Part shown: one piece after another, positions 2,989-42,770 of the stretch
How the letters are laid out: each line of letters starts with the position of its first letter
How positions within the stretch are numbered: the first letter of the stretch is position 1
NCBI RefSeq assembly: GCF_900166585.1
Contig: NZ_FVZC01000009.1
Span: 1,054,001-1,118,000, forward strand
DNA: 64,000 nucleotides
Direction of reading: 5' to 3'
Source: Mesobacillus jeotgali
GTDB taxonomy: Bacteria; Bacillota; Bacilli; Bacillales; Cytobacillaceae
Notes under the pieces: model-generated
Databases searched by the model: none
What the model was told of the DNA's origin: nothing
Seen by the model: only the letters and a program-made list of their open reading frames with translations
Position numbers and translations under genes: made by a program

Positions 2989-3092
2989 AATGCCTAAGAA
3001 AGTAGATTTAATAGACATTTCAGCGAGGAACTCTTTTCAAAATGTCTAAGAAAGTGTATTTAATAGACATTCAGAGAAGAACCATGTTCAAA
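2989..3092. repeat. 52-bp direct repeat pair with inner dyad (array A)
   Basis: Two imperfect copies start at 2991 (TGCCTAAGAAAGT) and 3043 (TGTCTAAGAAAGT), exactly 52 bp apart; the segment ATTTAATAGACATT recurs at 3006 and 3058, again 52 bp apart. In the second copy AATGTCTA at 3041 pairs with TAGACATT ending at 3071 (8 bp, 15-nt loop). A separate small hairpin AGAACCA/TGGTTCT follows at about 3078-3103. The rest of the 382-bp gap between the phosphatase and the WGR-like gene shows no gene. This is the smallest of five arrays in the window with the same period. Confidence 0.7.
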
Positions 3093-3246
3093 GAGTGGTT
3101 CTCTTTAAGGAGAGGAGAGAACCCAAAAAATCAATACCAAAAGACAGACTTATCAGCACTTTTGGACGGTCTTTTTGATTGTTAAAATAAAGTTTGAGTT
3201 GAACCTTTTATTGCAATGCTAAAAAAAACGATATGGGGTGCTAATC

Positions 3247-3786
3247 TTGATTAAGATGATTAAAAAGACTGATGTTGAAGTTTTGTATTGGGAAATCTGG
3301 CAAGATGGTAAAACACTGGTCATTCATTACGGTACTATTGGAGATATTGGTGAGACTGATGAAAAGAAACTTTCACTATTCCAAAAGGCAGGAAAGTTAA
3401 TGAATGAATTAGCAGAAGAAAAAGCTAGTGAGGGATACGATTATCTAGATGAAGATGAACTATTCGAACTTGTAGTTCAGTACAGCTATGAAGAAGACCG
3501 GATGGAAGCAACTCTGGAAAAACGACATCATGTTGAGGATTTAATGAATGAATGTTTAGGCTGGACAGGCAACGGTTCTTGTGATGGCGGAGATATCGGC
3601 AGTGGTACAGCTAATATTTTCAACTATGTTGTCGATGTTAAGAAAGCAACACGAACAATCATAGAAGAATTAAAGAATAACAACCTGCTTGAAGGAGTAA
3701 AAATAGCTTATTTAAACCCTGAAGACGAGGAATACCTCGCTTTGTATCCGGAAGGTACAGAGTTGGCCTTATGTAAAAGGCATTGA
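3247..3786 (+). CDS. WGR-domain-like protein, function unknown
   Basis: 179 aa acidic protein. Residues 10-60 resemble a WGR domain: YWEIWQDGKTLVIHYGTIGD, then GET and an EEKASEGYDYL helix end, where WGR proteins have ...eK...GY. The C-terminal half (NECLGWTGNGSCDGGDIGSG) is a separate glycine-rich domain I do not recognise. The TTG at 3247 lies 6 nt after GGGGTG; the GTG at 3238 has no binding site of its own and ATG 3256 is too far. It stands alone between the cobalamin operon and a secreted protein gene. WGR domains bind DNA ends or nucleic acid in other proteins, but no activity is claimed here. Confidence 0.7.
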   Translation: MIKMIKKTDVEVLYWEIWQDGKTLVIHYGTIGDIGETDEKKLSLFQKAGKLMNELAEEKASEGYDYLDEDELFELVVQYSYEEDRMEATLEKRHHVEDLMNECLGWTGNGSCDGGDIGSGTANIFNYVVDVKKATRTIIEELKNNNLLEGVKIAYLNPEDEEYLALYPEGTELALCKRH

Positions 3787-3960
3787 GGCATCTGTCTGAA
3801 AACATTTTCCCAATAAAAATAAGACAAATAGGGTTTTAAGAAAATGTTTTTAGGAGCACCTTCCTATTTTTACAAAAAATAGAATTGGTTCTTTGTGAAC
3901 TTTTTCAGAATCTCCTTCTGCTGTATTCTTAGTAATTAACTAGGAAAAGGAGGTTTTTCA

Positions 3961-5358
3961 ATGTTAAAACTATCGTCAAAAGTACTTGCCGGAACTCTGG
4001 CTATTACTCTGGCAGGCACAAGTCTCGCCTGGGCCTGTGAGGATGGGCAAAAAAGTTATATTGAAGCTGGAGTTTCGACATTTGGCGGAATTCCACAAGT
4101 TAAGGGTTCTAAAAACTTTATGAATCTCCAGGAGACTGCCGCAGTGCCATTGAAGGAACTAAAAGGTTCGTCTGTAACTACTGCTGATGTGTTTGCCCAT
4201 AAAGGATATGCCTATCTGGGAACACATAGAGGAAAAATGACAAACGAGGGAGTCCGGATTTTTGACATGAAAGATCCTGCGAATCCTAAGGAAGTAGCTG
4301 TCATTGGGAATGATATTCCGGGAACTTGGCAGGAAAAAGTTATTGTTCAATCCGTGAGTACCCCGGCTTTCCAGGGCGATATCGCAGCGATTAGTGTACA
4401 AAGGGTTGATAAGGAACGATATGGCTATGAAGGAGAAACGTCTCCGAATGGCGGAGTTGTGCTTTATGATGTCACAAATCCTGCTTCACCAAAGAAATTA
4501 GGCTTTTGGAAAACCCCTTCAAACCTGCCAACTGGCACGCATGAATTCTGGCTGACTGAGCAAAACAATCGTTTGCTGCTGCTTGCAACTAACTACCAGG
4601 CAAAAAGATACAAAGACCAGGGAGTAACAGTGAATGATTTCTCCATTGTCGATGTGACAGATCCAACGCAGCCAAAAGATTTGTCCAATTGGGATCCAAC
4701 AGAAGTAGGCGGTGCTTTTGACGGTAATTATACATATAAGGATGAGACAGGAGCGTCAAGGACTGCATTCCTTCACAGTGTAATTGCCGACGAGACAGGT
4801 AAATATGCATATCTGTCCTACTGGGATCTCGGTACGATCATTTTAAATATTGAAGATCCGGAAAATCCAAAATTCGTAGGCCGCACTAAATTCGAACGTG
4901 ACGTTCAGGGAGCCGCGCATTCAGCCGCACTAGCTCATGGGGGAAATATCCTCATCGAAACAAGAGAAGTGTTCAATCCTGATCCACATGATCCAGAATT
5001 CGAAAGAGGATGGGGATATGTACGAGTCTATGATATTAAGGATAAGAGCAATCCAGTTTTGCTGAGCACCTTCCGAACTCTGAATTCCGCTGTCCAAATT
5101 AAAGCAGGGGAAAGACAGCCAGGAACCTATACTGTTCACGACCCGAAAGTTAGAGGAAACACTCTATATCTGTCACATTATTCAGATGGTATTCGAATGG
5201 TCGACCTGACAGATCCAAGCAACCCGGTTGAAGTCGGTTCCTATGTATCCGATAAAGCAAATGTGTGGGGAGTATTTGTTGATCGGAATTATATCCTTGC
5301 TTCGGATATGGGCCAGGGATTGAAGGTACTTCAGAAGGTTGGAACAGGGTTAAGATAA
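3961..5358 (+). CDS. Secreted LVIVD-repeat beta-propeller protein
   Basis: 465 aa. The N-terminus (MLKLSSKVLAGTLAITLAG then ACED) is a signal peptide cleaved about residue 25. The body has repeated strands of the LVIVD type: VRIFDMKDPANPKEVA, VVLYDVTNPASPKKLG, FSIVDVTDPTQPKDL, IILNIEDPENPKFVG, VRVYDIKDKSNPVLL and IRMVDLTDPSNPVEVG, about six blades. Such proteins are exported and thought to be protein-interaction propellers; no enzyme residues are evident. Start ATG follows AAAAGGAGGTTTTTCA. It is monocistronic, with a strong hairpin terminator after it. Specific function unknown. Confidence 0.85.
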   Translation: MLKLSSKVLAGTLAITLAGTSLAWACEDGQKSYIEAGVSTFGGIPQVKGSKNFMNLQETAAVPLKELKGSSVTTADVFAHKGYAYLGTHRGKMTNEGVRIFDMKDPANPKEVAVIGNDIPGTWQEKVIVQSVSTPAFQGDIAAISVQRVDKERYGYEGETSPNGGVVLYDVTNPASPKKLGFWKTPSNLPTGTHEFWLTEQNNRLLLLATNYQAKRYKDQGVTVNDFSIVDVTDPTQPKDLSNWDPTEVGGAFDGNYTYKDETGASRTAFLHSVIADETGKYAYLSYWDLGTIILNIEDPENPKFVGRTKFERDVQGAAHSAALAHGGNILIETREVFNPDPHDPEFERGWGYVRVYDIKDKSNPVLLSTFRTLNSAVQIKAGERQPGTYTVHDPKVRGNTLYLSHYSDGIRMVDLTDPSNPVEVGSYVSDKANVWGVFVDRNYILASDMGQGLKVLQKVGTGLR

Positions 5359-5433
5359 AGTTAGGTATAAAATATTGCAAAATTGTTTAAGCTTCTTAGA
5401 TTAAGAAGAACATTTAAAAAACTTGTTTACTTT

Positions 5434-5469
5434 AAAAAGATGATTCCTGAAACGGGGGGTCATCTTTTT
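5434..5469 (+). terminator. Terminator after the LVIVD gene
   Basis: Perfect 10-bp inverted repeat AAAAAGATGA (5434-5443) and TCATCTTTTT (5460-5469) with a 16-nt loop ending in GGGGGG. The arm ends in a T run, as in an intrinsic terminator; the A run on the other side lets it work in both directions. Confidence 0.8.
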
Positions 5470-5511
5470 GCTTGCGTATCGAGTGAGTGCAGTGGGTGCA
5501 GGTAACGTATT

Positions 5512-5557
5512 AAAAAGACCCTGTGAATCAGACTTTAACTTGTCTAATTCACAGGGT
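5512..5557 (-). terminator. Terminator of the acetamidase/formamidase gene
   Basis: ACCCTGTGAAT (5518-5528) pairs with ATTCACAGGGT (5547-5557), and AGAC/GTCT inside the loop extends the stem. On the minus strand it is followed by CTTTTTA, so it ends transcription of the gene that stops at 5581. Confidence 0.85.
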
Positions 5558-5580
5558 ACTGTATAACAGCTTTTATAAGA

Positions 5581-6891: not shown

Positions 6892-7254
6892 TATAAGTCA
6901 CCCTTTCTGAATTTTCAGTCTCTACCTTATTATAGTGCTATTTATTGAGAGAGGCGAAAGAAAAGCATTACAGATACGAAACATGGGAATCCTTATTTAA
7001 GGAAGTGCTTTATACCCAGTTTATTAATATTTCAATGTAATACAAGTTAAACGTTAATTAGGTGGTAAAGGGAATTTGCCTCCACATAAATTAATAAATT
7101 CTTATCTTAAAATGTTATAAATGGAAATATGTTAATTTAAATTGCTTTTTGATGGAAACTACAGTTCACCTTAAAAGTTACCAGGCTTGCAACCAAATTA
7201 CCATTCAGTCAAAAAGGGAGAGGGACGCTGTTAATTTCCTTACTATCTCAACAT
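6892..7254. other. Intergenic region upstream of the amidase gene
   Basis: AT-rich, with no open frame supported by a binding site. The only signal seen is a minus-strand TATAAT at 6929-6934, 38 bp before the amidase start, without a convincing -35 box. An activator or alternative sigma factor may be needed, but no operator was recognised. Confidence 0.4.
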
Positions 7255-8893: not shown

Positions 8894-8912
8894 TCTCGCA
8901 GTTTTTTAAAAC

Positions 8913-17748: not shown

Positions 17749-18505
17749 TGCTTTAGGATTATTTTGGGGCGAGTCGTCACACCCTTATGTAGTGATTCTT
17801 CGTTCCATAAGACTCCCTTTAAGCTCTAATCACATCCTTATGTAAGGAGTTCAAGTTCCATAAGACTCCCTTTAGGTTCTAATCGCACCCTTATGTAGTG
17901 ATTCTTCGTTCCATAAGACTCCAATTAGGTTCTAATCGCACCCTTATGTAAGGAGTTCAAGTTCCATAAGACTCCTTTTAGGCTCTAATCACACCCTTAT
18001 GTGAGTAATTCAAGTTCCATAAGACTCCAATTAGGTTCTAATCGCACCCTTATGTAAGGAGTTCAAGTTCCATAAGACTCCTATTAGGCTCTAATCACAC
18101 CCTTATGTGAGGAATTCAAGTTCCATAAGACTCCATTTAAGCTCTAATTACGCCCTTATGTGAGTAATTCAAGTTCCATAAGACTCCCTTTAGTCTCTAA
18201 TCACACCCTTATGTGAGGAATTCAAGTTCCATAAGACTCCATTTAAGCTCTAATTACGCCCTTATGTGAGTAATTCAAGTTACATAAGACTCCATTTAAG
18301 CTTTAATCACACCCTTATGTAGTGATTCTTCGTTCCATAAGACTTCAATTAGGCTCTAATCACACCCTTATGTAAGGAGTTCAAGTTACATAAGACTCCA
18401 TTTAAGCTCTAATCACACCCTTATGTAAGTAATTCAAGTTCTATAAGGCTCCATTTAGCCACTATTTACACTTATATGCAATTCCATGTTCCATAAGAAT
18501 CCATG
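17749..18505. repeat. Tandem array, 53-bp unit, 13 clean copies (array B)
   Basis: Units begin with GTTCCATAAGACTCC at 17802, 17855, 17908, 17961, 18014, 18067, 18120, 18173, 18226, 18279, 18332, 18385 and 18438, each exactly 53 bp apart; a decayed copy precedes (17749) and a partial one follows (18488). Each unit contains CATAAG and CTTATG arms, giving alternating loops of 25 and 16 nt. Copies differ at few sites, notably AAGGAGTTCAA, GTGATTCTTC and GAGTAATTCAA variants of one segment, which recur out of order as after unequal exchange. It fills the 1.1-kb gap between the MaoC-like gene and padR; the flanks (17578-17748, 18506-18600) hold no gene. Confidence 0.95.
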
Positions 18506-22681: not shown

Positions 22682-24106
22682 CTAATCCTCCTGCCGGTTT
22701 GGATCATTTGGCCTCAAGGAAGCATCTCTTCTGGTCAGCATATTCCATGGCATTTTAAAAAAAGAAACACCCAGCTTTGATAATGAAAAAGGGTAGGAGA
22801 AGGACAAATAAGGAACACCGTGTGATGTTAAGGTTGAAAAATAAAAAATTACCAGAAGTGTTCCCACTACAATGCCAAAAATACCGAAAAATGTACCTAA
22901 TAAAAGGAGGACAATGCGGAGTAGCGTTGCAGCGCCTCCAAGAGTGGGATTCACCAGAGTATAACCACTCACAAAAACTATTCCCCCCACTACCAGCATC
23001 GATGGAGAAGTCAATCCCGAACGGATTGCGGCATCGCCAACAATTAAACCGCCAAGAACGGATACTGTTTGTCCAACAGAACGAGGCAGTCTCATTCCTG
23101 CCTCATGAAAAAGCTCGAAAAGAAACAGCATAATCACCATTTCCATGGATGTAGACAGTGGGATGCCTAACCGTGAAACACTAATGGTGGCAACCAATTG
23201 AAAAGGAATTTGATCAATATTATGAGTAGTCAAAGCAACCCAAAATCCAGGTAAAAGAATAGAAATAAATAACGAACTAAGACGAAGCATTCTTTCAAAG
23301 GAGACATATAAATAATTCTGATTTAAATCTTCTGGTGATTTTATTAAGTTTGCAAGATGAACTGGTGCGATGGAGGCCAAAGGCTGGCCATCGATCAAAA
23401 GTGCATACCTTCCTTGATTTAATGCTTCAAGAACATAATCAGGCCTGCCGCTGTTGTCGGAAGTTGACATCAAAGATCTTGGCTGATCTGCTAATAATTT
23501 CTCAATTTGCTGAAGACTTGTTACTACATCCAAATCAAGATTCATTATCTTATTTTTTAAAGAATCCAATAACTGTTTGTTTACAATGTCATCAATATAT
23601 ATAAGCGCCATGGTCACATTGCTTCTTTTGCCAATAATATATTTCTCCACTTTTAATTGATTAGATTTAAAGCGTTTTCGGATCAAGGCCAGGTTTGAAT
23701 TTAGGTCTTCGATAAAACCATCTCTTGGACCTTGAACTGATGGTTCGATGGAAGATTCCTCCGGAGTCCGGGCGGGGACCTTTGAGACATTCAAGGCAAA
23801 GATCGTTTTGTCTATAAAAATTAGAAGGCTTCCTGATAAAAGTTCCAGCTGCAATTCAGCAATGGATTCCTCAGAAACATCTTTGACAAGAAACTCCTCT
23901 CTTACGAACAAAGTAAAGTCACGTAAGCTGCCTTCAGCTTTTCTTAATCTTGATATAACGACTTGTTCAATAAAATTAACGTCAACCAGACTTGCAAAAT
24001 AAGAGAGTTCGATGGAGAAATGCTTGTAACTTCTTGAGGAAAAGATGACATCGTCACAATTATTAAATTCTGCTTTTAGCTTTTCAAATAGATTATGACC
24101 TTTCAA
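22682..24106 (-). CDS. Spore germination protein, GerA family
   Basis: 474 aa A subunit. The N-terminal half is the cytosolic domain; IGKRSNVTMALIYIDDIVNK near 175 and ARTPEESSIEPSVQGPRDGF near 130 are the family hallmark segments. Four to five membrane helices follow from about 285 (LFISILLPGFWVALTTHNID, LGGLIVGDAAIRSGLTSPSM). It starts 14 bp inside the end of gerXB, and gerXC follows after 1 nt, so the three are a tight operon. Receptors of this class form ion-conducting oligomers that trigger germination by amino acids or sugars. Confidence 0.93.
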   Translation of the reverse strand: MKGHNLFEKLKAEFNNCDDVIFSSRSYKHFSIELSYFASLVDVNFIEQVVISRLRKAEGSLRDFTLFVREEFLVKDVSEESIAELQLELLSGSLLIFIDKTIFALNVSKVPARTPEESSIEPSVQGPRDGFIEDLNSNLALIRKRFKSNQLKVEKYIIGKRSNVTMALIYIDDIVNKQLLDSLKNKIMNLDLDVVTSLQQIEKLLADQPRSLMSTSDNSGRPDYVLEALNQGRYALLIDGQPLASIAPVHLANLIKSPEDLNQNYLYVSFERMLRLSSLFISILLPGFWVALTTHNIDQIPFQLVATISVSRLGIPLSTSMEMVIMLFLFELFHEAGMRLPRSVGQTVSVLGGLIVGDAAIRSGLTSPSMLVVGGIVFVSGYTLVNPTLGGAATLLRIVLLLLGTFFGIFGIVVGTLLVIFYFSTLTSHGVPYLSFSYPFSLSKLGVSFFKMPWNMLTRRDASLRPNDPNRQED

Positions 24107-25181
24107 GAGGTGCCTTCTCCCTTCGTTTTGATAAGAGAACTAAAATAAATAATACCGTCGTAATAGATACAACAATGATTAAACTAAAGGGAAGGAAATA
24201 AAGGTACTGAAATTTATTAATGTCATAGGTGTCCAGTTTTAAAAAGGAAAAACCATATATTATTAAATATAAAAAAGGCAGAAATAACTTACTTTTTCTT
24301 TTATTAAAGTAATGATTGATAATATACATAAACAAACCTATACGAAAAAAAGCACCGCTTATCCATTGAAACATAGCCAGGAAATCTAAACGGGAGATAA
24401 ATTCACCTATTTTTAATAACTTCCATTCCTCATATGCCGGAAATGCAAAATTTCTTGCTTCAACAGGGCCAAATTCCATAATAGCCGCAGACAACGGGCC
24501 AAACGTTAACCCCAGTAAAACGACACCTAACCAAAATATTTGTTTGAATTGTATTTTTTGATTAAGTTTATGTTGAATTAAAATTATGACAAAAATCTCC
24601 GTTAGTCCTGATAATGAAAAGAAAATCCCTTTGAAAAAGGGAACATATCCATTAAGAAACAATGGAAACAAGTATTCAGGATCTTTCTCTGTAGTATTAA
24701 CACTCATGATAAAAAAACCAAGAAAAACGACCATAGGCAAAACAATAGTAGACATGATGGCCAGTATTTTTAATTTTCTGCTAGAAAGCAAGTAACAAGA
24801 TATAAGCAGAACTGATGAAATGAGAAAGCTCGGCGTAGTCGGCAGAAAATAGATCTCTGCCCAGTAAGATGTATTAATGAATGTAATGGAAGCATGGACA
24901 AAAAGAATCAATATTAAGGGTAACGCAATCAGAGCAGCCATTAACTTTCCATAACGTTTTTTAAGCCAATCCGATATGTTCTCCTGATTGGTATTTTTAT
25001 TAATGTAATAAATGATCCAGATAAAAAGCAAAAAAGGGAAAAACGCAGTTATAACACTTAACCATGCATCCCTTCCTGCAGCCTCCAGCAATAAAGGAAT
25101 GAGAATAACATGATTAAATAAACCCGTCGACAATGTTAATATAAAGAAAACTTCTTTTGCCCTCAGAAGATTGTAATTCAA
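24093..25181 (-). CDS. Germinant receptor permease subunit, GerB family
   Basis: 362 aa, about ten membrane segments of the APC-superfamily spore permease type. Family marks are STGLFNHVILIPLLLEAAGRDAW near the start, LNGYVPFFKGIFFSLSGLTE in the middle and the FGPVEARNFAFPAYEEWKLL loop, which differs least between receptors. A TTG at 25181 has GGTGGTGA about 10 nt upstream; an upstream TTG at 25229 has none. The B subunit binds the germinant. It is first in the operon, which is unusual relative to the classical A-B-C order, but the second operon in this window has the same order. Confidence 0.9.
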   Translation of the reverse strand: MNYNLLRAKEVFFILTLSTGLFNHVILIPLLLEAAGRDAWLSVITAFFPFLLFIWIIYYINKNTNQENISDWLKKRYGKLMAALIALPLILILFVHASITFINTSYWAEIYFLPTTPSFLISSVLLISCYLLSSRKLKILAIMSTIVLPMVVFLGFFIMSVNTTEKDPEYLFPLFLNGYVPFFKGIFFSLSGLTEIFVIILIQHKLNQKIQFKQIFWLGVVLLGLTFGPLSAAIMEFGPVEARNFAFPAYEEWKLLKIGEFISRLDFLAMFQWISGAFFRIGLFMYIINHYFNKRKSKLFLPFLYLIIYGFSFLKLDTYDINKFQYLYFLPFSLIIVVSITTVLFILVLLSKRREKAPLERS

Positions 25182-25276
25182 TCGAAATTCACCACCAGAT
25201 TCATTCCCAACAGAGAATATCCTTAGCAAAATGGAAAATTTTTATGCATGCAGGAAGGCGCCTACCAGGATCAACT

Positions 25277-26262
25277 TTGGACAGGTTCAGAGGAATATAG
25301 AGAAAAGCTGTCCAAAGCAGGAACAACTTCGGACAGGTTTGACGGAATATAGAGAAAAGCAGTCCAAACAAGGGGCAACTTTGGACAGGTTCAGAGGAAC
25401 ATAGAGAAAAGCTGTCCAAAGCAGGAAGAACTTTGGACAGGTTCGATGGAATATAGTGAAAAGCAGTCCAAACAAGGGGCAGCTTTGGACAGGTTTAGAG
25501 GAATATAGGGGAAAGCTGTCAAAACAAGGGGCGACTTTGGACAGGTTCAGAGGAATATAGTGAAAAGCTGTCAAAACAAGGGGCAACTTTGGACAGGTTC
25601 AGAGGAATATAGTGAAAAGCTGTCAAAACAAGGGGCAACTTTGGACAGGTTCAGAGGAATATAGAGAAAAGTTGTCCAAAGCAGGAAGAACTTTGGACAG
25701 GTTTGATGGAATATAGAGAAAAGCTGTCCAAAGCAGGAACAACTTCGGACAGGTTTGATGGAATATAGAGAAAAGCAGTCCAAAGCAGGAACAACTTTGG
25801 ACAGGTTTGATGGAATATAGAGAAAAGAAGTCCAAAGCAGGAAGAACTTTGGACAGGTTTGATGGAATATAGAGAAAAGCAGTCCAAAGCAGGAACAACT
25901 TCGGACAGGTTTTATGGAATATAGAGAAAAGCAGTCCCAAGCAGGAAGAACTTCGGACAGGTTTAAGGGATTATAGTGAAAAGCTGTCAAAACAAGGGGC
26001 AACTTTGGACAGGTTCAGAGGAATATAGAGAAAAGTTGTCCAAAGCAGGAAGAACTTTGGACAGGTTTGATGGAATATAGAGAAAAGCAGTCCAAAGCAG
26101 GAACAACTTTGGACAGGTTTGATGGGATATAGGGAAAAGCAGTCCAAAGCAGGAACCACTTCGGTCAGGTTTAATGGATTATAGAGGAAAGCTGTCAAAA
26201 CCTAGGTAAACTTGGACAGGTTCAGTGAGATATATCAAAAAGGTGTCCAAACATGGGGATCA
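25277..26262. repeat. Tandem array, 52-bp unit, about 19 copies (array C)
   Basis: Units begin TTGGACAGGTT at 25277 and recur every 52 bp to 26212, about 18 full copies and a terminal one. In each, CTGTCCAAAG and CTTTGGACAG are exact 10-bp complements around a 9-nt loop (CAGGAACAA or similar), so the array can form a row of tight hairpins on either strand. Variants are CAGGAAGAA, CAGGAACAA and ACAAGGGGCAA in the loop region. It fills the gap upstream of gerXB. Reading frames across it on the minus strand are a by-product of the repeat length. Confidence 0.96.
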
Positions 26263-26358
26263 TAATGCTGTTTAATTGAATTTTCTGTCTATCTTTAAAT
26301 TATCAGTGCGGATTCTATAATTTAAGTCTCGGCTATTTATCCATCACAGTTGGGAAGA

Positions 26359-26386
26359 GCCCTTTAAAGATTATATTTTAAAGGGC
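26359..26386 (-). terminator. Hairpin after the 41-aa gene
   Basis: GCCCTTTAAA (26359-26368) and TTTAAAGGGC (26377-26386) are exact complements with an 8-nt loop, followed on the minus strand by TCTTCC. It ends the small gene at 26402; the T run is weak. Confidence 0.55.
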
Positions 26387-26401
26387 ATGGTCTTTCTGTT
26401 G

Positions 26402-26527
26402 TTAACTTGTCTTTTCTTTTTCCAACTTTTCGATTAGTGATTCAACGGTTTTCATAATCGTTTCATTGCTCACATCCCGGCCTAATACTGCGCTGGCCCT
26501 CTTTACTAATTCTTCTTTGCTAATCAT
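26402..26527 (-). CDS. Small protein, 41 aa, unknown function
   Basis: Reads MISKEELVKRASAVLGRDVS and on through ETIMKTVESLIEKLEKEK. The ATG (26525-26527) follows GGAAGGTAAAAAA, and a hairpin follows the stop. The composition is charged and helix-forming, with a heptad-like C-terminus (IMKTVESLIEKLEKEK) that could be a short coiled coil. It lies between array C and a GNAT gene on the other strand. I do not recognise the family; start, stop and hairpin make it a plausible gene. Confidence 0.6.
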   Translation of the reverse strand: MISKEELVKRASAVLGRDVSNETIMKTVESLIEKLEKEKTS

Positions 26528-26645
26528 TTTTTTTACCTTCCTATTTACTTATTTCATTTTTCACCCAATGTTTATTATCGGTTGAATTATTTTAAATTAA
26601 ATAAGAACATAGAATAAATAACTGAAACGCTAAGGAGGCATTTTT

Positions 26646-27095
26646 GTGCCACAACATAATTTTAAAATAATTGAATATAACCGGTGTTATGCACGTCAAA
26701 CAGTGGAAATGTGGCGAAATAGTAAGGAACAAGCTATTGGACAGAAGGAAAAGCATAGCTTTGAAAATCATATACATTTTTTAAATCATCTTTTACCAGA
26801 ACAGTTTCAAATAGACATTGCGTTAAGTGAAGACGAAGTAGTCGGTTTGATTGCCTATAGCAATAATGAAATCAGTCAACTTTACATCCATATTGATTAC
26901 CAGGGATGTGGTATTGGACAAATCTTGCTGGATCGGGCGAAAAAACAATCATGTGGACGATTAACTTTATTTACGTTTGAAATTAATGAAAAAGCACATC
27001 GTTTTTATGAAAAGAATGGTTTCACGATAGTGGGGAGAGGTCATGAAAATGAAGAGGATCTGCCGGATATTGAGTATGAGTGGATATCCAAATGA
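26646..27095 (+). CDS. GNAT family N-acetyltransferase
   Basis: 149 aa. Acetyl-CoA site QLYIHIDYQGCGIGQILLDRAKKQ (about 80-103) with the Q/R-x2-G-x-G/A pattern, and the C-terminal FTFEINEKAHRFYEKNGFTIVG signature. It resembles general YncA/RimI-like acetyltransferases. GTG follows CTAAGGAGGCATTTTT. Divergent from the 41-aa gene. The acceptor substrate is unknown. Confidence 0.87.
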   Translation: MPQHNFKIIEYNRCYARQTVEMWRNSKEQAIGQKEKHSFENHIHFLNHLLPEQFQIDIALSEDEVVGLIAYSNNEISQLYIHIDYQGCGIGQILLDRAKKQSCGRLTLFTFEINEKAHRFYEKNGFTIVGRGHENEEDLPDIEYEWISK

Positions 27096-27282
27096 AGTTC
27101 TTAAGCAGATACTATAAGCCCAAATGAAACCAATATGAGTCGGTTTTTTATTTGTGAAAAATAAGATGTTGCAGGGCTGTCAGTTATATACCAGGAGAAG
27201 GTATAAGCGTATTAACTATCGAATATATTTATGGAATGTTAAAACGGAGGAATGCTGAGTCAATATTTTAAGGAGGAATCTA

Positions 27283-27840
27283 ATGAATCAAGCTTTATTG
27301 GTCATCGATGCTCAACAGGATTTAATAGAAGGAAATGAAGTGGAACAGGGAGTTATTGAAAAGGATAGATTATTGAACAACATCAATACTGTTGTAGATA
27401 ACGCTATTAAAGAAAGTGTTCCGGTAATTTTCATTAGAGATATAGATGTCGCAAATGGAGAGGGACCTGGCTTTCAAGTCCACCAGGATATTATAGTACC
27501 TTCCGATTCAGTGATATTTGATAAAGCGGCTACAAATTCTTTTTATGGAACTCCTTTAAAAGATTATCTAAATGAAAATAAGATCGGTCATTTGGTTATT
27601 ATGGGTTGTAAGACAGAATATTGTATTGATACAGCCGTAAGAACAGCTACAATTAATCAGCTTGATGTCACCTTAGTTGGGGACGGTCATTCGACTTCAG
27701 ACTCTAAAGTGTTATCCGCAAAAGATATCATTCTTCATCATAACGCCATTCTTCACGGTCACTATAATGTAGACAATTTTTCTATTGTGAGAAATTCTTC
27801 TGAAGATTTATTTACTCCTATTCACAATCAATATCGATAA
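27283..27840 (+). CDS. Isochorismatase-family cysteine hydrolase
   Basis: 185 aa. The family triad is visible: Asp in LLVIDAQQDLIEG (about 9), Lys in VIFDKAATNSFYGT (about 86) and the nucleophile Cys in MGCKTEYCIDTAVRTA (about 119), with the cis-peptide before it. Members hydrolyse small amides or vinyl ethers (nicotinamide, N-carbamoyl compounds, isochorismate). No siderophore gene is near, so an amidase-like role is more likely than isochorismate cleavage. ATG follows AAGGAGGAATCTA. Monocistronic with its own terminator. Confidence 0.88.
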   Translation: MNQALLVIDAQQDLIEGNEVEQGVIEKDRLLNNINTVVDNAIKESVPVIFIRDIDVANGEGPGFQVHQDIIVPSDSVIFDKAATNSFYGTPLKDYLNENKIGHLVIMGCKTEYCIDTAVRTATINQLDVTLVGDGHSTSDSKVLSAKDIILHHNAILHGHYNVDNFSIVRNSSEDLFTPIHNQYR

Positions 27841-27902
27841 GTCCTGATCAGTAAAGTAATTTAAATAGTTGTTAAGGGTGCAAGAATATTTAGAAACTTA
27901 GA

Positions 27903-27936
27903 GGCTTGGAGAATTTTAAATTCTCCGAGCTTTTTA
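27903..27936 (+). terminator. Terminator of the isochorismatase-family gene
   Basis: GCTTGGAGAATTT (27904-27916) pairs with AAATTCTCCGAGC (27918-27930; one mismatch), tiny loop, then TTTTT. Confidence 0.85.
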
Positions 27937-28042
27937 TTTTTAGGAAAGGCCAATTAATCTGAATAAAAGAGGGGCCGCCCAATTGCATAATTTCTTATTA
28001 ATGGCAAAAATTATTCCTATTAGTTATAGAATGGGGTTTGCC

Positions 28043-29128
28043 ATGAAATTCTCACGGCTGCAAATATCAAGCATGATTATATTATTTACAGGGATTTCTA
28101 ACCATGTCATGATCCTGCCGCATCTTTTAAGTGTTGCAAAACGTGATGCATGGGTGAGTATCGCCATATCGTATTCAATTCTTTTACTTTGGGGAATCTT
28201 CGTCATCTTTCTGCTCAAAAGGATGAATGGAGAGTATTTCTTTAGCTGGGTACAGAGCAGGGGAGGTGCTTTTGCTGTAAGGGGATTTACCCTGATTTTT
28301 GCTCTGTATTTTCTTGTATCGGGCATTTTATCATCATACGATTTCATTTTAATGATCAAGATTTACTTTCTTCCCAATACACCTGCCTGGATTGTCACTT
28401 TTTCCTTTATATTTCTTTGCGTATGGGCTGCTTATAAAGAGTTTAGGACTATTCTTTATGCATCGGTTTTGTTATTGCCCATTGTCTGGGCTTTTGGTTA
28501 TTTTGTTGCATTTTCTACGTTTAATAAGAAAGATTATTCCAATCTTTTTCCAGTGTTAGTTAATGGATTGCATCCGGTGCTGGAAGGGGTTGTCATTGTT
28601 CTCGGAGGGAGTATGGACTTGCTTATTATATTCCTGATTCAGGATAAGCTTAGCAAGCAATTTAGATTCAGGCATTTGGTCGTTTTATTTTCTGTCGTCA
28701 TCATGCTTGTTGCAGGTCCGACGACTGGGTCAATAGCTTCCTTTGGACCCCATGTAGCAGCAAATTTCCGTTTTCCTGCATTTGAGCAGTGGAGGCTTGT
28801 CCAATTGGGGAGACAGGTATCACACATGGACTTTTTAGCTGTATTTCAATTTTTGTCCGGTTCATTTATTAAAGTATCCTTGAGTTTGTTTTTGCTGATT
28901 GATTTATTTGGAATAAAATCCGAAGTGTTAAAAAGGAACTTATTAATAGCAGCTGGTGGCATATTTTCACTAGCTTCCATTGTTCCGCTAAGTGATTTAT
29001 TACTTCAAAAGATGGTAGGAAGTTTTTATTATCCTGTGATGTTCATCAGCGGACTTGCGACTTCTGCAATATTGCTCATCATTGGGATTTTGCCTAAGAG
29101 TAAAGGGGTGAACAATAATGGAACATGA
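28043..29128 (+). CDS. Germinant receptor permease subunit, GerB family
   Basis: 361 aa, about ten membrane helices, second GerB paralogue of the window. MKFSRLQISSMIILFTGISN and HVMILPHLLSVAKRDAW align with the start of the first one, and FGPHVAANFRFPAFEQWRLVQLG matches its conserved loop. The ATG at 28043 has GGGG 7 nt upstream and fits the usual GerB length; a TTG at 27983 after AGAGGGG would add 20 residues. The gene overlaps the following gerXA by 11 bp. Same subunit order as the minus-strand operon. Confidence 0.88.
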   Translation: MKFSRLQISSMIILFTGISNHVMILPHLLSVAKRDAWVSIAISYSILLLWGIFVIFLLKRMNGEYFFSWVQSRGGAFAVRGFTLIFALYFLVSGILSSYDFILMIKIYFLPNTPAWIVTFSFIFLCVWAAYKEFRTILYASVLLLPIVWAFGYFVAFSTFNKKDYSNLFPVLVNGLHPVLEGVVIVLGGSMDLLIIFLIQDKLSKQFRFRHLVVLFSVVIMLVAGPTTGSIASFGPHVAANFRFPAFEQWRLVQLGRQVSHMDFLAVFQFLSGSFIKVSLSLFLLIDLFGIKSEVLKRNLLIAAGGIFSLASIVPLSDLLLQKMVGSFYYPVMFISGLATSAILLIIGILPKSKGVNNNGT

Positions 29129-30577
29129 TCCGCATTTTTCTGAGAAAATCAGTCTTGCGCAAGAAGCTTTATCATCTGGGCGAATGGATAAAAATAAACT
29201 CCAGGAGTTTTTTAAAACTTATGCTGATGTTTCGGTAAAGAACTATAAACCATCAGGCGAATTAATCACTGTAATTTATAGTGAGGGAATGGTCGACGGA
29301 AGCCAGTTAAATGATTATTTTAATAGTGTGAATGCCTTTATATCAGCCAGGGGAAAAGCGGTGGAATATCAACACGATTTGCCGCCGGTGATGACTATTG
29401 ACAGTATTTTAACAATGATTGAAAAAGTTTTTTCAGGTTTCCTTGTTTTTTTTCAAAAAAATAGGAGTCATTTTTGGGCTATTGATATTGCCAATATACC
29501 AAAAAGAACCCCCGAAGAATCCAAAACGGAAACATCAATCAAGGGACCCAAAGATGCTTTTACAGAAGAAATAAATACGAATATTTCACTTATGAGAAAA
29601 AGAATTAAGAGTCCGATGCTTTATAATGAAATATTTTTGGTAGGCGGATTGACGAAAACAAAGGTGTCGCTTTTGTATTTGACCCATAAAGTAAACCATG
29701 ATGTGTTGCTTGAAGTAAGAGAACGTTTGAACAAGATTGACACTGAGAGTGTTCTAAGTGCGGGGCAGCTGGAGCAATGGCTATCGGACAGGACATTCGC
29801 TATATTTCCATTGATGGATTACATTACCCGCCCTGATTATGCAATTGAATCCATGTTAAGGGGGAGGTTCATCATTGCTGTTGATGGTTCTCCAATGGTA
29901 TTGATTGGACCGGCAAATTTAACGGAATTAACCAAATCACCCGAAGATATTCATTTCCTTATTATTTTGTGTTATTCCAGAGAGTTCTGCGTTTGATTGG
30001 CATCCTTATTGCCATTTTTTTGCCTGGCTTTTGGATTGCCATTGCTGGTGTAAATGTGGATCAACTTCCTTTTCCCCTTTTGGCAACAGTAGTTGTCTCC
30101 AGACAGGGATTGCCGCTGCCTATTGGATTGGAAGCCACCTTTATCCTGCTTTTATTTGAATTATTAAGAGAGGCGGGAGTGAGAATGCCTACGGCTGTGG
30201 GACAAACAATTACAATTGTTGGGGGTTTGATCATAGGGGATGCTTCCATAAGAGCTGGCCTTGCATCCCCAACCATCATTGTGGTCATTGCTTTAACAGC
30301 TGTAGCAACCTACACTCTAGTAAATCAATCCTTGTCAGGCACTGTAACGATTCTGAGGTTCTCGATATTAATGATATCTTCTTTCTTAGGAATTTTCGGG
30401 CTCTTTATCAGTTCTTTCGCTGTCCTGATTTACTTATGTCAGTTGGAATCTTTTAAATTAAATTATATGGAACCGCTTGTCTCTCTTAAACCAAGTGAAG
30501 TTCTATCCGCATTGCTGATAAACCCGTATAAAACAAGAAATTTTGCTGCTTCTATGCTTAAAAGAGGGAGAAAGTGA
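29118..30577 (+). pseudogene. GerA family germination protein, broken by a frameshift
   Basis: The first frame (29118-29996) encodes the cytosolic half with IPKRTPEESKTETSIKGPKD and ends prematurely after SPEDIHFLIILCY. The membrane half continues in another frame from VLFQRVLRLIGILIAIFLPG to 30577. Restoring one C in TTCC near 29957 gives SPEDIHFPYYFVLFQRVLRL, which aligns without gaps to SPEDLNQNYLYVSFERMLRL of the other GerA here. So a 1-bp deletion separates the halves. Start ATG follows AAAGGGGTG by 7 nt. If real, this receptor lacks a full A subunit and should be inactive. Confidence 0.85.
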
Positions 30578-31725
30578 TGAGGTACCTGTCGAGATTCAGT
30601 ATAGCAGTATTGGGTTGTCTACTAATTATAGTGCAATCAGGCTGTTCAGATATAAGAGAAACTCAGGATTTAAACTATGCAACAGCCATAGGTGTGGATT
30701 ATAGAGATGGGAAATACCATACCTATATCCAATTGGTGGATCTTATGAAGGTTGCAAAAACAGAGGGTGCAGATACTTCTCCCGCCAAGATGTGGGTATC
30801 AGAATCTGAGGGAGAGATATTTATTGACTCATTTTTTGATATATATAGAACAGCACAGGAAAGATTTGTGTGGGCACACGTAACTGCCATTGTACTGACA
30901 GAAGCAGCTTTGAAGCAAGGGTTTCAGGAAATCTTTGATGGACTGACCCGTTACCACGAATTCCGACTGACTCCTTGGGTTTATGGTACAACAGAACCAA
31001 TAGAAGATATATTGTCTGCAAAAGGTTTTTTTGGACAAACATCACTTAACACGATCCTCCACCATCCCGAATCAATATTCCAGCAAAGTTCCAAGCTAAA
31101 ACCGATACAGTTTTTTGAACTATCAAGACAGATATTCGAACCGGCCTATACAGCATATCTGCCTTCTCTATCTATCGATGAAAACGATTGGAAGGAAAGT
31201 GGAAAAAACGAACCTAAGTTATTTATGAATGGAGCTTTTTTCATCGAAAATGATAAATATAAAGGTTTTTTTCCTGGTGAGGAATTAAACGGCCTTAGGT
31301 GGACGATCTCTGATATGCAAAGAATTCAGGTGCTAATTCCAGATGCCAAGGGACCATCCTTTTTAACCGTTTTCGAGGACCCAAAAGTAAAGTATATAAG
31401 TAATGGACCGACTGTTGACATGATTATTCAAGTTAAAGGGAATCTGGCTAACCGCGATAAAAATAGGGATCTCGAACTTAATAAAATGAAACAGTTGTGT
31501 GAGGCTGTCATCAAAAAAGAAATCCATGAACTATTTGAGTTGGGATTAAAGGAAGATACAGATTTCTTGAATATAGAACACGTACTATATCGCGAAAACA
31601 CGAAGCTCTGGAAGAAAAACCATTCACTATCCCATTCGGTTTTGAATCAAGTGAAAGTAGATGTTGAAATCAATCATACCGGGGCATTGAAGAATCGGAT
31701 GATTGAAATGGATGATTTGGATTGA
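30577..31725 (+). CDS. Spore germination lipoprotein, Ger(x)C
   Basis: 382 aa C subunit. Lipoprotein signal MRYLSRFSIAVLGCLLIIVQ then SGC lipobox; next LNYATAIGVDYRDGKYHTYI, the family start of the mature protein. ATG 30577 overlaps the gerXA TGA and follows GAGGGAG by about 8 nt. It is intact even though the gerXA before it is frameshifted, and translation initiation would still work through its own binding site. Confidence 0.9.
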   Translation: MRYLSRFSIAVLGCLLIIVQSGCSDIRETQDLNYATAIGVDYRDGKYHTYIQLVDLMKVAKTEGADTSPAKMWVSESEGEIFIDSFFDIYRTAQERFVWAHVTAIVLTEAALKQGFQEIFDGLTRYHEFRLTPWVYGTTEPIEDILSAKGFFGQTSLNTILHHPESIFQQSSKLKPIQFFELSRQIFEPAYTAYLPSLSIDENDWKESGKNEPKLFMNGAFFIENDKYKGFFPGEELNGLRWTISDMQRIQVLIPDAKGPSFLTVFEDPKVKYISNGPTVDMIIQVKGNLANRDKNRDLELNKMKQLCEAVIKKEIHELFELGLKEDTDFLNIEHVLYRENTKLWKKNHSLSHSVLNQVKVDVEINHTGALKNRMIEMDDLD

Positions 31726-32442: not shown

Positions 32443-32700
32443 ATGACAGCTAAAGGTCGAAACTCCCAAAGCTGACAAGAAAGACTGGTAATCGTGACAA
32501 GTTAATGCTAGAACTCACGGAAGCTGTCAAGAAGAGCTCTTGATCGTGAGAGGTGAAGGCTCAGACTCACCAAACCTGTCAAGAAACTCCGGTAATCTTG
32601 ACAGGTTAAGGGTGAGACTCACGGAAGCTGTCAAGAAAATCCCGTAATCATGACAGATTAATAAAGAAAATCTCCAAAGCTGTCAATAAAACCCTTAGCC
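32443..32700. repeat. Tandem array, 52-bp unit, 4-5 copies (array D)
   Basis: Units begin GCTGTCAAG or near variants at 32471, 32523, 32575, 32627 and 32679, exactly 52 bp apart, with half a unit before the first. In the third copy CCTGTCAAG and CTTGACAGG are exact complements around 13 nt; the other copies are weaker. The array sits between two convergent genes, starting 4 bp after a stop codon. Confidence 0.92.
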
Positions 32701-38841: not shown

Positions 38842-40611
38842 TTATTTTCGATTGCCCTTCAGGTTAATCCCAATCGCTGCTCCGTTCCGGCTTGAGTCGG
38901 CTACACCCTTAAAAGTTCCGTTTTCACGATCGATCAGAATGCTTTGGACATTGCCGATGGTAGTCGGGCTGTCCCAAAATTTATGACCCATGGCATTCAG
39001 TTGGGTTAATGTATCAGCGCTAATACCATCTTCATAACGGTAGGAATTCGGATTGTTGGTATAGATTCTTGGTTCTTCGACGGCTTTCTTTAATTCCATA
39101 TCGTACTCAATTGCATGTAAAATGGTTTGCAGCACCGAAGTTATTATCGTTGGGCCCCCAGGAGAGCCGACAGTCAAGACTGGTTCGCCATTATCGAAAA
39201 CAATGGTAGGAGTCATGCTGCTTAAAGGACGTTTGTTTGGCTGAACTTCATTCGCACCGCCAGGTACTGCGTCAAAGTCGGTCAATTCATTATTCAGCAT
39301 GAAACCATAACCAGGAACCATGATGCCTGTGCCAAAAACTTGTTCGATAGTAGTAGTGTAGGAGACAACATTTCCCCATCTGTCTGTGACGGAAAAATGG
39401 GTTGTTTCTCCATATTTTTTGTCATTCGGCTGGCTTGTAGGTGAATAGTTAGCTTCGGAATTCTCATATTTCCAAGGATCACCGGCTGTTGGATTCTGAT
39501 TTGCTGAATCCATTTTGATCAGCTCCTGACGTTCCTTGATGTATTCTGGATGAAGAAGACCTATAACTGGAACATTGACAAATTCAGGATCCCCAGCGTA
39601 TACAGCCCGGTCCGCATAGGCAAGATGCATAGCTTCTGCAAGGAGGTGATATTTTTCTGTGGATCTGACATCATATTGGGATAAATTGAAACCATCTAGT
39701 ATTTTTAACATTTGCAGCAGGAAGACACCTCCAGAGCTTGGTGGGGGCATACTGGCAATTTCGTAACCCTGATAGTCTCCCCAAACTGGCTGATCAACAG
39801 TTACATCATATTTTGCCAAGTCATCGGAAGTCATTGATCCTCCAAAGTCCTGGACAACTCCAGCAACCGCTTCTGCAATTTCTCCTTTATAAAAGGCATC
39901 AGTACCTTTTGATCGGATTAGCTTAAAGGTATTGGCCAAATCATCCTGAACGAGGATGTCTCCCTCCTGAAGAGGCTTTCCATCAGGGAGGAAAACTTCA
40001 CCTGCTGCTGATTTTGATAATTTGTCTTGACTTTCGGCAATGGCATCTGCCAGTACAGAATCTATAGGAAATCCCTTATCAGCCAGTTTAACGGCCGGGC
40101 CGATCAGCTGCTCAAGCGGGCGCGTTCCCCACATGTCAAGAGCAGTTTCAAGTCCTTTCAGCGTGCCAGGTACACCCACTGCAGTACCCCCAGTTGACCG
40201 AACAGAAAAAGGAATAGGTTTTCCATTTTCATCAAGGAACATGTCCGGAGTCGCCCCTTGAGGAGCCCGCTCTCGACTGTTTATAATTTTGGTTTCCTTT
40301 GTTTTTCCGTCATAGACCATCATGAATCCGCCGCCGCCAATTCCGGACATCATTGGCTCAACTACGGTTAGTGCAAACTGGATAGCAACAGCAGCATCAA
40401 TTGCATTACCGCCTTTTCGCAGGACTTCGGCGCCAATCTCGGATGCAAGAGGATGAGCTGTTGCAACCATTCCATCCTTGCCTACATCGACCTGGCTGTA
40501 CTGGTCGTAGCTGAATTCCGGTTTTTTTGCGAATCCAGCTGCAGGAATGGTACCGGCCAGCAACAAGAGACTTAGTATAGCCATGAAACTCATACGTAGG
40601 ATATTTTTCAA
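38842..40611 (-). CDS. ggt: Gamma-glutamyltransferase
   Basis: 589 aa secreted precursor. Signal peptide LKNILRMSFMAILSLLLLAG then PAAGFA. Self-cleavage to large and small subunits occurs before the threonine of GETTHFSVTDRWGN (near 400), which becomes the nucleophile; PGGPTIITSVLQTI and LSSMTPTIV lie in the small subunit, and SRERAP near 115 binds the gamma-glutamyl carboxylate. The enzyme hydrolyses or transfers gamma-glutamyl groups from glutathione, glutamine or poly-gamma-glutamate outside the cell. TTG 40611 has AGGAGG 7 nt upstream. Transcribed alone, with a dyad at its promoter. Confidence 0.95.
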   Translation of the reverse strand: MKNILRMSFMAILSLLLLAGTIPAAGFAKKPEFSYDQYSQVDVGKDGMVATAHPLASEIGAEVLRKGGNAIDAAVAIQFALTVVEPMMSGIGGGGFMMVYDGKTKETKIINSRERAPQGATPDMFLDENGKPIPFSVRSTGGTAVGVPGTLKGLETALDMWGTRPLEQLIGPAVKLADKGFPIDSVLADAIAESQDKLSKSAAGEVFLPDGKPLQEGDILVQDDLANTFKLIRSKGTDAFYKGEIAEAVAGVVQDFGGSMTSDDLAKYDVTVDQPVWGDYQGYEIASMPPPSSGGVFLLQMLKILDGFNLSQYDVRSTEKYHLLAEAMHLAYADRAVYAGDPEFVNVPVIGLLHPEYIKERQELIKMDSANQNPTAGDPWKYENSEANYSPTSQPNDKKYGETTHFSVTDRWGNVVSYTTTIEQVFGTGIMVPGYGFMLNNELTDFDAVPGGANEVQPNKRPLSSMTPTIVFDNGEPVLTVGSPGGPTIITSVLQTILHAIEYDMELKKAVEEPRIYTNNPNSYRYEDGISADTLTQLNAMGHKFWDSPTTIGNVQSILIDRENGTFKGVADSSRNGAAIGINLKGNRK

Positions 40612-40670
40612 ATTAATACCTCCTGTCAAAATTATTTTCAATATTATGGTAGGGGAAAAGAGAGTATAAT

Positions 40671-40685
40671 AGCAAACTATTTGCT
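40671..40685 (-). promoter_or_regulatory. Dyad at the ggt promoter region
   Basis: AGCAAACTATTTGCT is a perfect 6-bp inverted repeat with a 3-bp centre, next to TATACT on the minus strand (40662-40667) about 55 bp before the ggt start. It could be a repressor site. The factor is not known from sequence. Confidence 0.4.
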
Positions 40686-40777
40686 GAATTTTCCTAATTT
40701 TACATCTATTATACTAGTCTCATTAGTGATTATGATGAATAAAGCAGAAATCCCGCTAGGAAAAAAGGAGGGGTAGG

Positions 40778-40843
40778 ATGGAGTGGTTGAGTGGTTCAAT
40801 CCATTACATCAAGATTACTAAGGGCTTAATAAAGTTTAGGTAA
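40778..40843 (+). CDS. Possible 21-aa peptide
   Basis: A short frame MEWLSGSIHYIKITKGLIKF has a nearly ideal binding site AAAGGAGGGG 5 nt before its ATG. It lies in the 390-bp gap between ggt and the ProP-like gene, which otherwise holds no gene. It could be a leader peptide or chance; no conservation can be tested here. Confidence 0.35.
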   Translation: MEWLSGSIHYIKITKGLIKFR

Positions 40844-41002
40844 GGTCCCGATTAATTTCAGAATGAGAGGATTTCAACCCTTTGCTATTCTAAAAAAATA
40901 GTTACTTCCATAAATTTCATGTTTTTTATAGGTGTTAGTCAGGGAAAAGCTACTTATCAATTTATTATTTAGAAATACTAAATAAAGTTCAGGAGGGAAA
41001 AT

Positions 41003-42472
41003 GTGAATAAGCAACCAAGAGAAATTGCAAAAAAAGATATTTCAGTAGTAGACAGCGCTGAAGCAAAAAAATCAATGATGGGTACATCGATAGGGAATGC
41101 CATGGAGTGGTTTGATTTTGGTATTTATTCCTTCTTGGCCGTTACAATCGGAAAAGTGTTTTTTCCTGAAATTGACCCATCTTTCCAGTTGATTTATGCT
41201 TTTGCCACATTTGCCGTCGCCTTTATAGCGCGTCCAATAGGCGGCATGTTCTTTGGCATGATGGGTGACCGAATTGGCCGAAAGAATGTCTTGGCGATCA
41301 CAATGATCCTGATGTCGGTAGCTACTCTGAGTATAGGGTTAATACCTGGGTTCGCAACAATTGGAATTACTGCACAAGTCTTATTATTATTAGCAAGACT
41401 CGTTCAAGGTTTTTCTACCGGTGGTGAGTATGCGGGTGCAATGACATACATTGCCGAAACAACTCCCGATAAAAAAAGAAGCTTTATGGCAAGTGGTCTG
41501 GAAGTAGGAACGCTTGTAGGATTTATCGCAGGTGCTGGTCTTGTTACTGCTCTGACATACATCCTTGGTAGTGAAACGATGACTGCCTGGGGATGGAGGA
41601 TTCCATTCTTCATTGCTGCTCCTCTAGGCATAATCGGGTTCTATTTCCGTAATCATTTGGACGAAACGCCAGCATTTGAGGCGATGAATCAAACGATCGA
41701 AGAAAGAAAAGAAATTTCTTCCTTAAGAGAGATCTTTTCCGAGCATTGGAAAGCTCTTTTGATTTGTACAGCAATCGTAATTTTTTATAATGTTATGAGC
41801 TATACCGTTCTGACCTATATGCCATCTTATATGTCAGAAGAACTCGGGTACAGTGAAGAGAAGGGTTTGTTGCTTCTTGTCCTGGTCATGATTGCTATGA
41901 TCCCGCTAGTTTTGGCAATGGGGCATTTAAGTGATCGCTTTGGAAGAAATCGTATATTGAAAGCAGGTTTAATTGGAGCAATTATTCTTACCATACCTGC
42001 ATTTATGCTGGTCCGTTCAGGGAATATCTATTCTGCATTTTTTGGATTGCTGATACTTGGCGCACTGCTGTCGACATTCCAGGGCTCCCTGCCAGCAACT
42101 CTTCCATCATTATTTTTTACAAAAGTTCGTTATGGAGCACTCGCGATTACTTATAATACAGCGACCTCACTATTTGGCGGAACAACACCACTTCTTGTTG
42201 CATGGCTGGTGAGTGTAACGAATAATAAAATGGTCCCAGCCTATTATCTAATGGCGATGTGCGCATTCGGAATTATCATTGTCACCTTGTTTGTAAGAGA
42301 GACTGCAGGTAGATCACTTCGCGGATCCGCTCCAGTCGTTGAGCATGCAAGTGAAGTAAACGAAGTCCTTAAAAATCCGCAAAAAGCCTTCTGGTGGCAT
42401 GATGAATTAAAGTCAACCGGGAAAAACAGTCTTGGCAAAAGCTTATTGACGAATTTATTGCATAAGGATTGA
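41003..42472 (+). CDS. MFS metabolite:H+ symporter, ProP-like
   Basis: 489 aa, twelve membrane segments of the MHS family. The start MGTSIGNAMEWFDFGIYSFL is the family hallmark, the helix 2-3 loop is FGMMGDRIGRKNVL and helix 4-5 has LVQGFSTGGEYAGAMTYIAE. Members carry proline/betaine, citrate or other carboxylates with protons. Sequence resembles Bacillus proteins annotated ProP, but osmolyte transport is not proven and no osmosensory C-terminal coiled coil is seen. GTG follows TTCAGGAGGGAAAAT. Ends at a strong terminator. Confidence 0.85.
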   Translation: MNKQPREIAKKDISVVDSAEAKKSMMGTSIGNAMEWFDFGIYSFLAVTIGKVFFPEIDPSFQLIYAFATFAVAFIARPIGGMFFGMMGDRIGRKNVLAITMILMSVATLSIGLIPGFATIGITAQVLLLLARLVQGFSTGGEYAGAMTYIAETTPDKKRSFMASGLEVGTLVGFIAGAGLVTALTYILGSETMTAWGWRIPFFIAAPLGIIGFYFRNHLDETPAFEAMNQTIEERKEISSLREIFSEHWKALLICTAIVIFYNVMSYTVLTYMPSYMSEELGYSEEKGLLLLVLVMIAMIPLVLAMGHLSDRFGRNRILKAGLIGAIILTIPAFMLVRSGNIYSAFFGLLILGALLSTFQGSLPATLPSLFFTKVRYGALAITYNTATSLFGGTTPLLVAWLVSVTNNKMVPAYYLMAMCAFGIIIVTLFVRETAGRSLRGSAPVVEHASEVNEVLKNPQKAFWWHDELKSTGKNSLGKSLLTNLLHKD

Positions 42473-42480
42473 TCAATTAA

Positions 42481-42528
42481 AAAAACTTACTCAATGCCAA
42501 TGAAATGAGCATTTGAGTAAGTTTTTTT
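42481..42528. terminator. Terminator after the ProP-like gene
   Basis: AAAAACTTACTCAA (42481-42494) and TTGAGTAAGTTTTT (42513-42526) form a 14-bp perfect stem with A and T runs on both sides, so it can act in both directions. Confidence 0.92.
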
Positions 42529-42578
42529 ATTTATTCGGTACTATTATGTGGTTAGCTGAGGATCACCACCAGCCTATG

Positions 42579-42770
42579 TCTTGTCCGAACTTGCTTCTCC
42601 AACAGACAAAAAGCTTTTGTCTTATCAGAAGTTAGGGTTACTTCGAACATTTCAGGCGATCGCGACTGATCTTTTGTCCGAAGTAAGGGTTGCTTCGGAT
42701 ATTTCAGGCATTCGCGACTGTTCTTTTGTCCGAAGTTGGGGGGACTTCGGACATTCCGGGTGATCATGGA
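42579..42770. repeat. Short tandem array, 52-bp unit, 3-4 copies (array E)
   Basis: CTTTTGTCCGAAGT starts at 42671 and 42723, exactly 52 bp apart; a diverged copy begins at 42614 (57 bp away) and a fragment TTGTCCGAAC at 42581. In the last copy TGTCCGAAGT and ACTTCGGACA are exact 10-bp complements with a 7-nt loop. The array lies between convergent genes. Confidence 0.85.

Follow-up and report, generated by a model that had tools for sequence, protein, structure and literature searches.

Intergenic 52-bp arrays of Mesobacillus jeotgali: a known repeat class with new, testable properties, among them orientation with the replication fork

Results

Five arrays in one window

We analysed a 64,000-nucleotide stretch of the Mesobacillus jeotgali genome (hereafter called the window). 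It carries five tandem arrays:

2989..3100, + strand: array A, two copies of 52 bp with arms AATGTCTA/TAGACATT; family A/G
2991 and 3043 (starts), + strand: the TGTC-N19-GACA-like dyads of array A
17749..18505, + strand: array B, about 13-14 copies of 53 bp, CTTATG-16-CATAAG
25266..26262, + strand: array C, about 18 copies of 52 bp; half-sites AAAGCTGTC..GACAGGTTT, 24/28 bp start to start
32443..32700, + strand: array D, about 4-5 copies of 52 bp; same family as array C
42579..42770, + strand: array E, about 2.5-3 copies of 52 bp, TGTCCGAAGT-7-ACTTCGGACA

Array C lies between divergent genes, and array E between convergent ProP-like and CorA-like genes. Array D starts 4 bp past the stop of an NTP_transf_6 gene; the orthologous gene has no 52-bp array directly behind it in any of the 16 relatives examined. 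The window also holds two adjoining GerX-type spore germination gene groups (24093-31725), and a GerA-like gene (29118-30577) lies in two adjoining frames.

The original prediction gave arrays A to E periods of 52, 53, 52, 52 and 52 bp. Self-matching agrees with all five. The best shifts were 52 for A (69% identity), 53 and 106 for B (78% and 82%), 52 and 104 for C (83%), and 52 for both D (67%) and E (60%), and each of these peaks stands above the 99% level reached when the stretch in question is shuffled. TRF detects arrays B, C, D and E (12.9, 18.4, 4.4 and 2.5 copies) and does not report the two-copy array A. Membership of the 52-nt Bacillus tandem repeats requires at least four repeats (PMC8161180); B, C and D lie above this number, and A (2) and E (2.5) below it.

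Inverted arms had been claimed for every unit. They are visible by sequence in all five arrays, but an excess over shuffled sequence is confined to some of them. Among the four arrays scored on their TRF consensus (B, C, D and E), the best dyad beats shuffles in C and E only; B (P = 0.255) and D (P = 0.485) show no excess. In the proposed comparison of arms with shuffled sequence, 11 of 32 arrays from the window and the sampled regions, nine of the 32 having been picked for array B, have a dyad with P < 0.05.

The 52-bp period across the genome

The arrays had been proposed to share one rule, and in the M. jeotgali genome the rule is genome-wide. We ran TRF on 31 evenly spaced 20-kb regions (620 kb) and obtained 37 arrays, 20 of them with a period of at least 40 bp. 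In fourteen of these 20 the unit measures 51-53 bp or a multiple of that length; this is the 52-53-bp peak looked for in the unit-length histogram. These 14 arrays span 6,734 of 620,000 bp, so that 52-bp arrays occupy about 1% of the chromosome (about 14 arrays per 620 kb). Nine 20-kb stretches of genome G007 held no 52-bp arrays.

The histogram has an additional peak at 20-21 bp. This second intergenic repeat class (also seen at 41-43 and 86 bp) is built on TATATCGACCACATTTT and was found at L010, L040, L043 and L045 of the M. jeotgali genome and in G008, G010, G015, G016, G018 and G019. Intergenic repeats of 41-42 bp in Rossellomorea (L086, TTTGATAATA units) and Evansella (L105) may belong to a related class of other length.

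Families and a core shared by most of them

Circular alignment of 33 unit consensi gave families B (11, plus one doubtful), C/D (10), A/G (4), F (3), H/I (3) and E. The description of the five arrays as unrelated in sequence has to be given up: C belongs with D in a single family, and TGTC-N19-GACA (allowing at most one mismatch in 8) recurs in A, C, D and E, for the most part at 52-bp steps. In array C this core occurs at 16 positions, each 52 bp apart. Array B, with its CTTATG dyad and 53-bp unit, is the sole outlier of the five. The core is absent from families B, F, G and I and from the indicus-like genome G211, which rules out a universal TGTC-N19-GACA core.

TGTC and GACA stand at a distance of 23 in 16 of 50 units from several genera, several of the 16 being from one genus, against a shuffle mean of 0.035; in 200 shuffles every word-distance pair stayed at or below 3. 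A search for two such dyads 52 bp apart picked out 9 of 398 Bacilli genomes, which belong to 6 of 145 genera. Three of them are same-genus genomes with 273, 506 and 346 matches; four others have 58, 48, 27 and 16, and the remaining two have a single match each. The backward control of this search gave zero in each row listed. Three of the nine genomes lie outside the order, so the core is present in more than one order. Many of the 398 genomes, G211 included, have zero paired dyads.

Locked spacing and compensatory stems

Half-site spacing is locked while spacer sequence drifts. Read in fork orientation, C/D half-sites run 24 bp from CTGTC to GACAG (455 of 476) and 28 bp from GACAG back to CTGTC (472 of 492), for a unit of 52 in 924 of 964. 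The corresponding spacings are 22 and 31 in family B (unit 53 in 206 of 219), 23 and 29 in F, and 9 and 42 in I. Outside the search motif, 48 C/D array consensi have 1.9-2.0 bits in the AAAG columns before CTGTC and 1.3-2.0 bits in the GTTT columns after GACAG; most spacer columns have 0.1-1.3 bits.

Covariation of the arms, which had been put forward as a check, is seen across families but scarcely among the copies of an array, where compensatory cells are few (34). Across 95 distinct 27-mer consensi, complementarity exceeds that of shuffled partners at each inner pair from 5-23 to 9-19 (P≤0.0025 each) and does not exceed it at pairs 10-18 and 11-17. Complementary cells number 116 of 181 in 26 representatives against 43-49 for slid partners, a comparison in which the shuffling ignores relatedness and some representatives are of one genus. 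Arm mismatches within arrays comprise 136 G.T and 145 A.C cells, counted with an automatic unit length that was often one short (51 for 52). There is no wobble bias, and this equality disfavours a folded RNA.

Arrays point with the replication fork

We located dnaA and a dif-like site in each of six complete same-genus genomes. Among the matches listed, 55 of 59 C/D arrays are oriented with the fork (G008 11/11, G010 9/11, G015 5/5, G016 10/10, G018 9/11, G019 11/11). With a wider query the counts among the matches listed are 34/35 in G008 and 30/31 in G018. Controls differ in this respect. DDE (rve) insertion sequences follow the fork in 26 of 50 cases, and the 20-21-bp arrays in 61 of 87, which is the orientation of genes and unlike that of the 52-bp class. 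IS200-like Y1 elements, a natural control for lagging-strand insertion, run with the fork in 9 of 9 cases (G008 and G010), as do 5 of 5 other Y1 genes. IS200-like elements in G000 are 4/4 with replication by reading.

In the M. jeotgali genome we compared orientation with local GC skew, the sign of each family being set by its reference array: C/D 10/10, A/G 4/4, F 3/3, H/I 3/3, B 9/11 and E, a doubtful family, 1/2. The sole B array of G008 is reversed relative to the fork. This laxity of the B arrays counts against a replication-polar reading.

Published consensi match at least 10 of 299 genomes of the order, with two candidates scored per genome. In the indicus-like G211, a second genus, all 15 loci listed follow the fork and change strand at dnaA, with 8 on the minus strand to its left and 7 on the plus strand to its right; two loci in G218 are both consistent with fork direction by reading. 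In the coagulans-like G235, 21 of 30 loci listed follow one sign, no better than genes. A universal polarity is unsupported there, and this too counts against a replication-polar reading. For G211 and G235, we placed ter opposite dnaA on the chromosome. Across 80 named loci, 15 of 17 near-52 TRF arrays are purine-rich on the strand of positive local GC skew, although a few of the 17 repeat every 102-105 or 155 bp and may represent different kinds of array.

Shared sites and turnover

At least 11 of 35 G008 array sites are shared with G018, with both flanks aligned and direction equal, so counts across genomes are not independent. Sites this old could reflect inheritance or selection just as readily as insertion bias. 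At one site (L207/L031), the D-type array of G018 has a B array as its counterpart in G000, and an apparent C/D remnant lies beside that B array (by eye). In four site comparisons with G000 we found no clean target site at the insertion junctions and no case of solo-unit mobility. The L163/L009 comparison leaves 94 bp, and apparent decayed units are kept in G000 at L180/L036 and L156/L041 (by eye). A 583-bp stretch that bears the second L156 array (L156 6843-7425) is missing from G000, and the flanks at the empty site (L041 8314-8320) overlap there by 7 bp.

Homogenised copies and turnover of arrays at sites are what neutral satellites would give: hairpin-prone units would vary by replication slippage and gene conversion, and purine bias and replication asymmetry alone would set orientation. 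The fork-directed strand is indeed purine-rich (about 0.65 in large C/D subsets). We nevertheless consider this explanation unlikely, given half-sites kept while spacers of fixed length drift, stems compensated across families and a core shared in more than one order.

Orientation is independent of neighbouring genes

Array orientation tracks the fork and not the neighbouring gene. We examined 60 array loci of G008 and G018 with genes called by a longest-ORF script. Of 64 right-length arrays, 62 could be oriented and 59 of these follow the fork: 36/37 in G008 and 23/25 in G018, the latter from 25 of 32 loci listed, with both exceptions in and seven co-oriented loci left out. Genes in the same loci run with the fork in 340 of 470 cases (arrays versus genes, Fisher P = 1.7e-5). 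Fork direction is kept by 18 of 19 arrays whose upstream gene is opposed to it and by 5 of 6 whose two flanking genes both are; one B-type array accounts for the exception in either count.

The upstream gene is co-oriented in 41 arrays; a terminator-like site separates its stop codon from the array in 32 of these and comes after the array in 5 of 41. Shuffled upstream regions have 3 in 123. Most of these arrays therefore lie outside the upstream transcript.

These results weigh on the proposal that transcribed arrays act as hairpin RNAs (small RNA or sponge), a role suggested in PMC8161180 and in PMC8625621, which also gives RNA-seq matches of arrays in B. coagulans. Folding favours the fork-directed strand in 73 of 95 arrays under RNA parameters and in 78 of 95 under DNA parameters, and for this reason we keep structured RNA as a rival; the strand difference is largely one of composition (excess over shuffles -7.0 versus -5.5 kcal/mol). 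As the main reading it is out, by the balance of wobble and non-wobble mismatches, the terminator position and the gene-independent orientation, and the window has no Rfam match at gathering thresholds. We regard it as quite improbable. The original prediction had inferred a shared mechanism, with a multimeric DNA-binding protein, a replication-slippage rule or structured RNA as examples. A DNA-level mechanism, whether a multimeric protein or one linked to replication, fits better, and the RNA option loses ground for want of wobble bias, with terminators usually before the arrays and orientation by the fork.

Discussion

The lock of period and spacing, the compensatory stems, fork polarity in two genera and the usual position behind terminators were all computed from the sequences. 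Our preferred reading, held tentatively, is that the arrays are DNA-level, replication-polar satellites that arise, multiply and move by way of single-stranded DNA on the lagging-strand template. IS200-like elements share the array polarity and DDE elements do not; we set this beside the view that copying probably proceeds through lagging-strand single-stranded DNA. The commonest unit is a 27-bp dyad (TGTC foot, five to six covarying stem pairs, central loop, GACA foot) that, together with a 25-bp purine-rich spacer, makes five helical turns. Exposed in single-stranded DNA, the dyad may fold or be bound by a candidate dimeric protein, and insertion would fix the direction of the array, as for IS200-type elements. 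Copies would then be homogenised within a site and families would replace one another, with side-by-side recognition keeping the 52-bp pitch.

Several observations count against this lagging-strand reading. The difference in strand folding is largely composition, and neither solo-unit mobility nor a clean insertion junction was seen. The Y1 profile (PF01797) has zero matches in G005 and G015, both of which have C/D arrays. This counts against a route through a single-stranded-DNA transposase, Y1 being the only family tested, and removes a Y1/RAYT transposase as present-day driver.

The main rival of the lagging-strand reading is a polar protein-DNA platform under selection. A dimeric or polymerising candidate protein, from nucleoid, translocase or repair machinery, would read dyads every five turns, and wrong-way arrays would be purged. 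Strict half-site spacing, the conserved asymmetry of AAAGCTGTC versus GACAGGTTT, arm mismatches free of wobble bias and polarity kept at shared sites across species divergence all point this way, and a polymerising protein was also proposed by the authors of PMC8161180. Different families would, however, need different specificities, polarity is weak in the coagulans-like genome and no candidate protein was found. Contrary to a KOPS-like expectation, the arrays of G008 and G018 are not denser towards dif (ori-proximal half: 26/35 and 16/31). We think such a platform rather less than likely.

Taking the lagging-strand reading further, a dedicated Bacilli system might write 52-bp satellites through lagging-strand single-stranded DNA, recognising the folded TGTC-stem-loop-GACA by shape and foot, inserting or amplifying in the fork direction only and keeping a five-turn pitch. 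Stems would be free to change if both arms change together. We offer this as an improbable conjecture; if true, Bacilli of more than one order would possess an equivalent of eukaryotic satellite DNA, complete with machinery of its own. Ever since their description the 52-nt arrays have posed a stated puzzle, with a length that stays constant, a sequence that changes and no function. Near-strict coupling to the fork, whatever the neighbouring genes, and a covarying dyad across genera open this puzzle to concrete tests, of the strand that is processed, of protein binding to TGTC-N19-GACA and of the stability of inverted arrays.

Comparison with known systems

The arrays belong to the described class of constant-length 52-nt Bacillus repeats, and the claim that no element with this rule had been described does not hold. 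Subirana and Messeguer (2021, PMC8161180) reported that about 30% of 176 Bacillus genomes contain repeats of 51-53 nt, which form several non-coding families per genome and have no known function. They noted short signals "and their reverse" inside one unit, and listed selenatarsenatis, boroniphilus and subterraneus, species now in Mesobacillus. The likeness is close: a unit of 51-53 nt and several families per genome of equal length and different sequence. Whereas the published repeats were called species-specific, without sequence conservation, here one core extends across genera, stems covary and the arrays have a replication polarity. "Orientation" occurs nowhere in that text and "replication" once, on 20-21-nt repeats; neither word occurs in the accessible part of PMC8625621. 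In the literature searched, the J Bacteriol 2020 paper aside, we found no paper on the replication direction of 52-nt arrays. Fork polarity, terminator position, the spacing lock, the cross-genus core with compensatory stems and the lack of G.T bias appear to be new. The 52-bp arrays are thus a known class with new testable properties.

CRISPR loci resemble the arrays in their regular pitch and in combining a dyad with a spacer. CRISPR spacers are unique, whereas the spacers within one of our arrays are homogeneous (0.76-0.99 conservation per column outside the imposed motif columns). KOPS, SRS and Chi-type sites are single octamers with strand polarity along the replichores. The polarity is alike, but the arrays are long tandem dyads, and we reject a KOPS-like function since their density in G008 and G018 does not rise towards dif.

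IS200/IS605 elements, like the arrays, have an orientation fixed by the fork, and IS200-type elements insert into the lagging-strand template (PMC6006769). REP/RAYT systems, according to the same source, comprise intergenic hairpins with a conserved foot in several families, and so do the arrays. The foot of REP/BIME with RAYT is GT[AG]G; that of the arrays is TGTC/GACA in most families and CTTATG in B. Unlike both IS200/IS605 and REP/RAYT, the arrays are locked at a period of 52.
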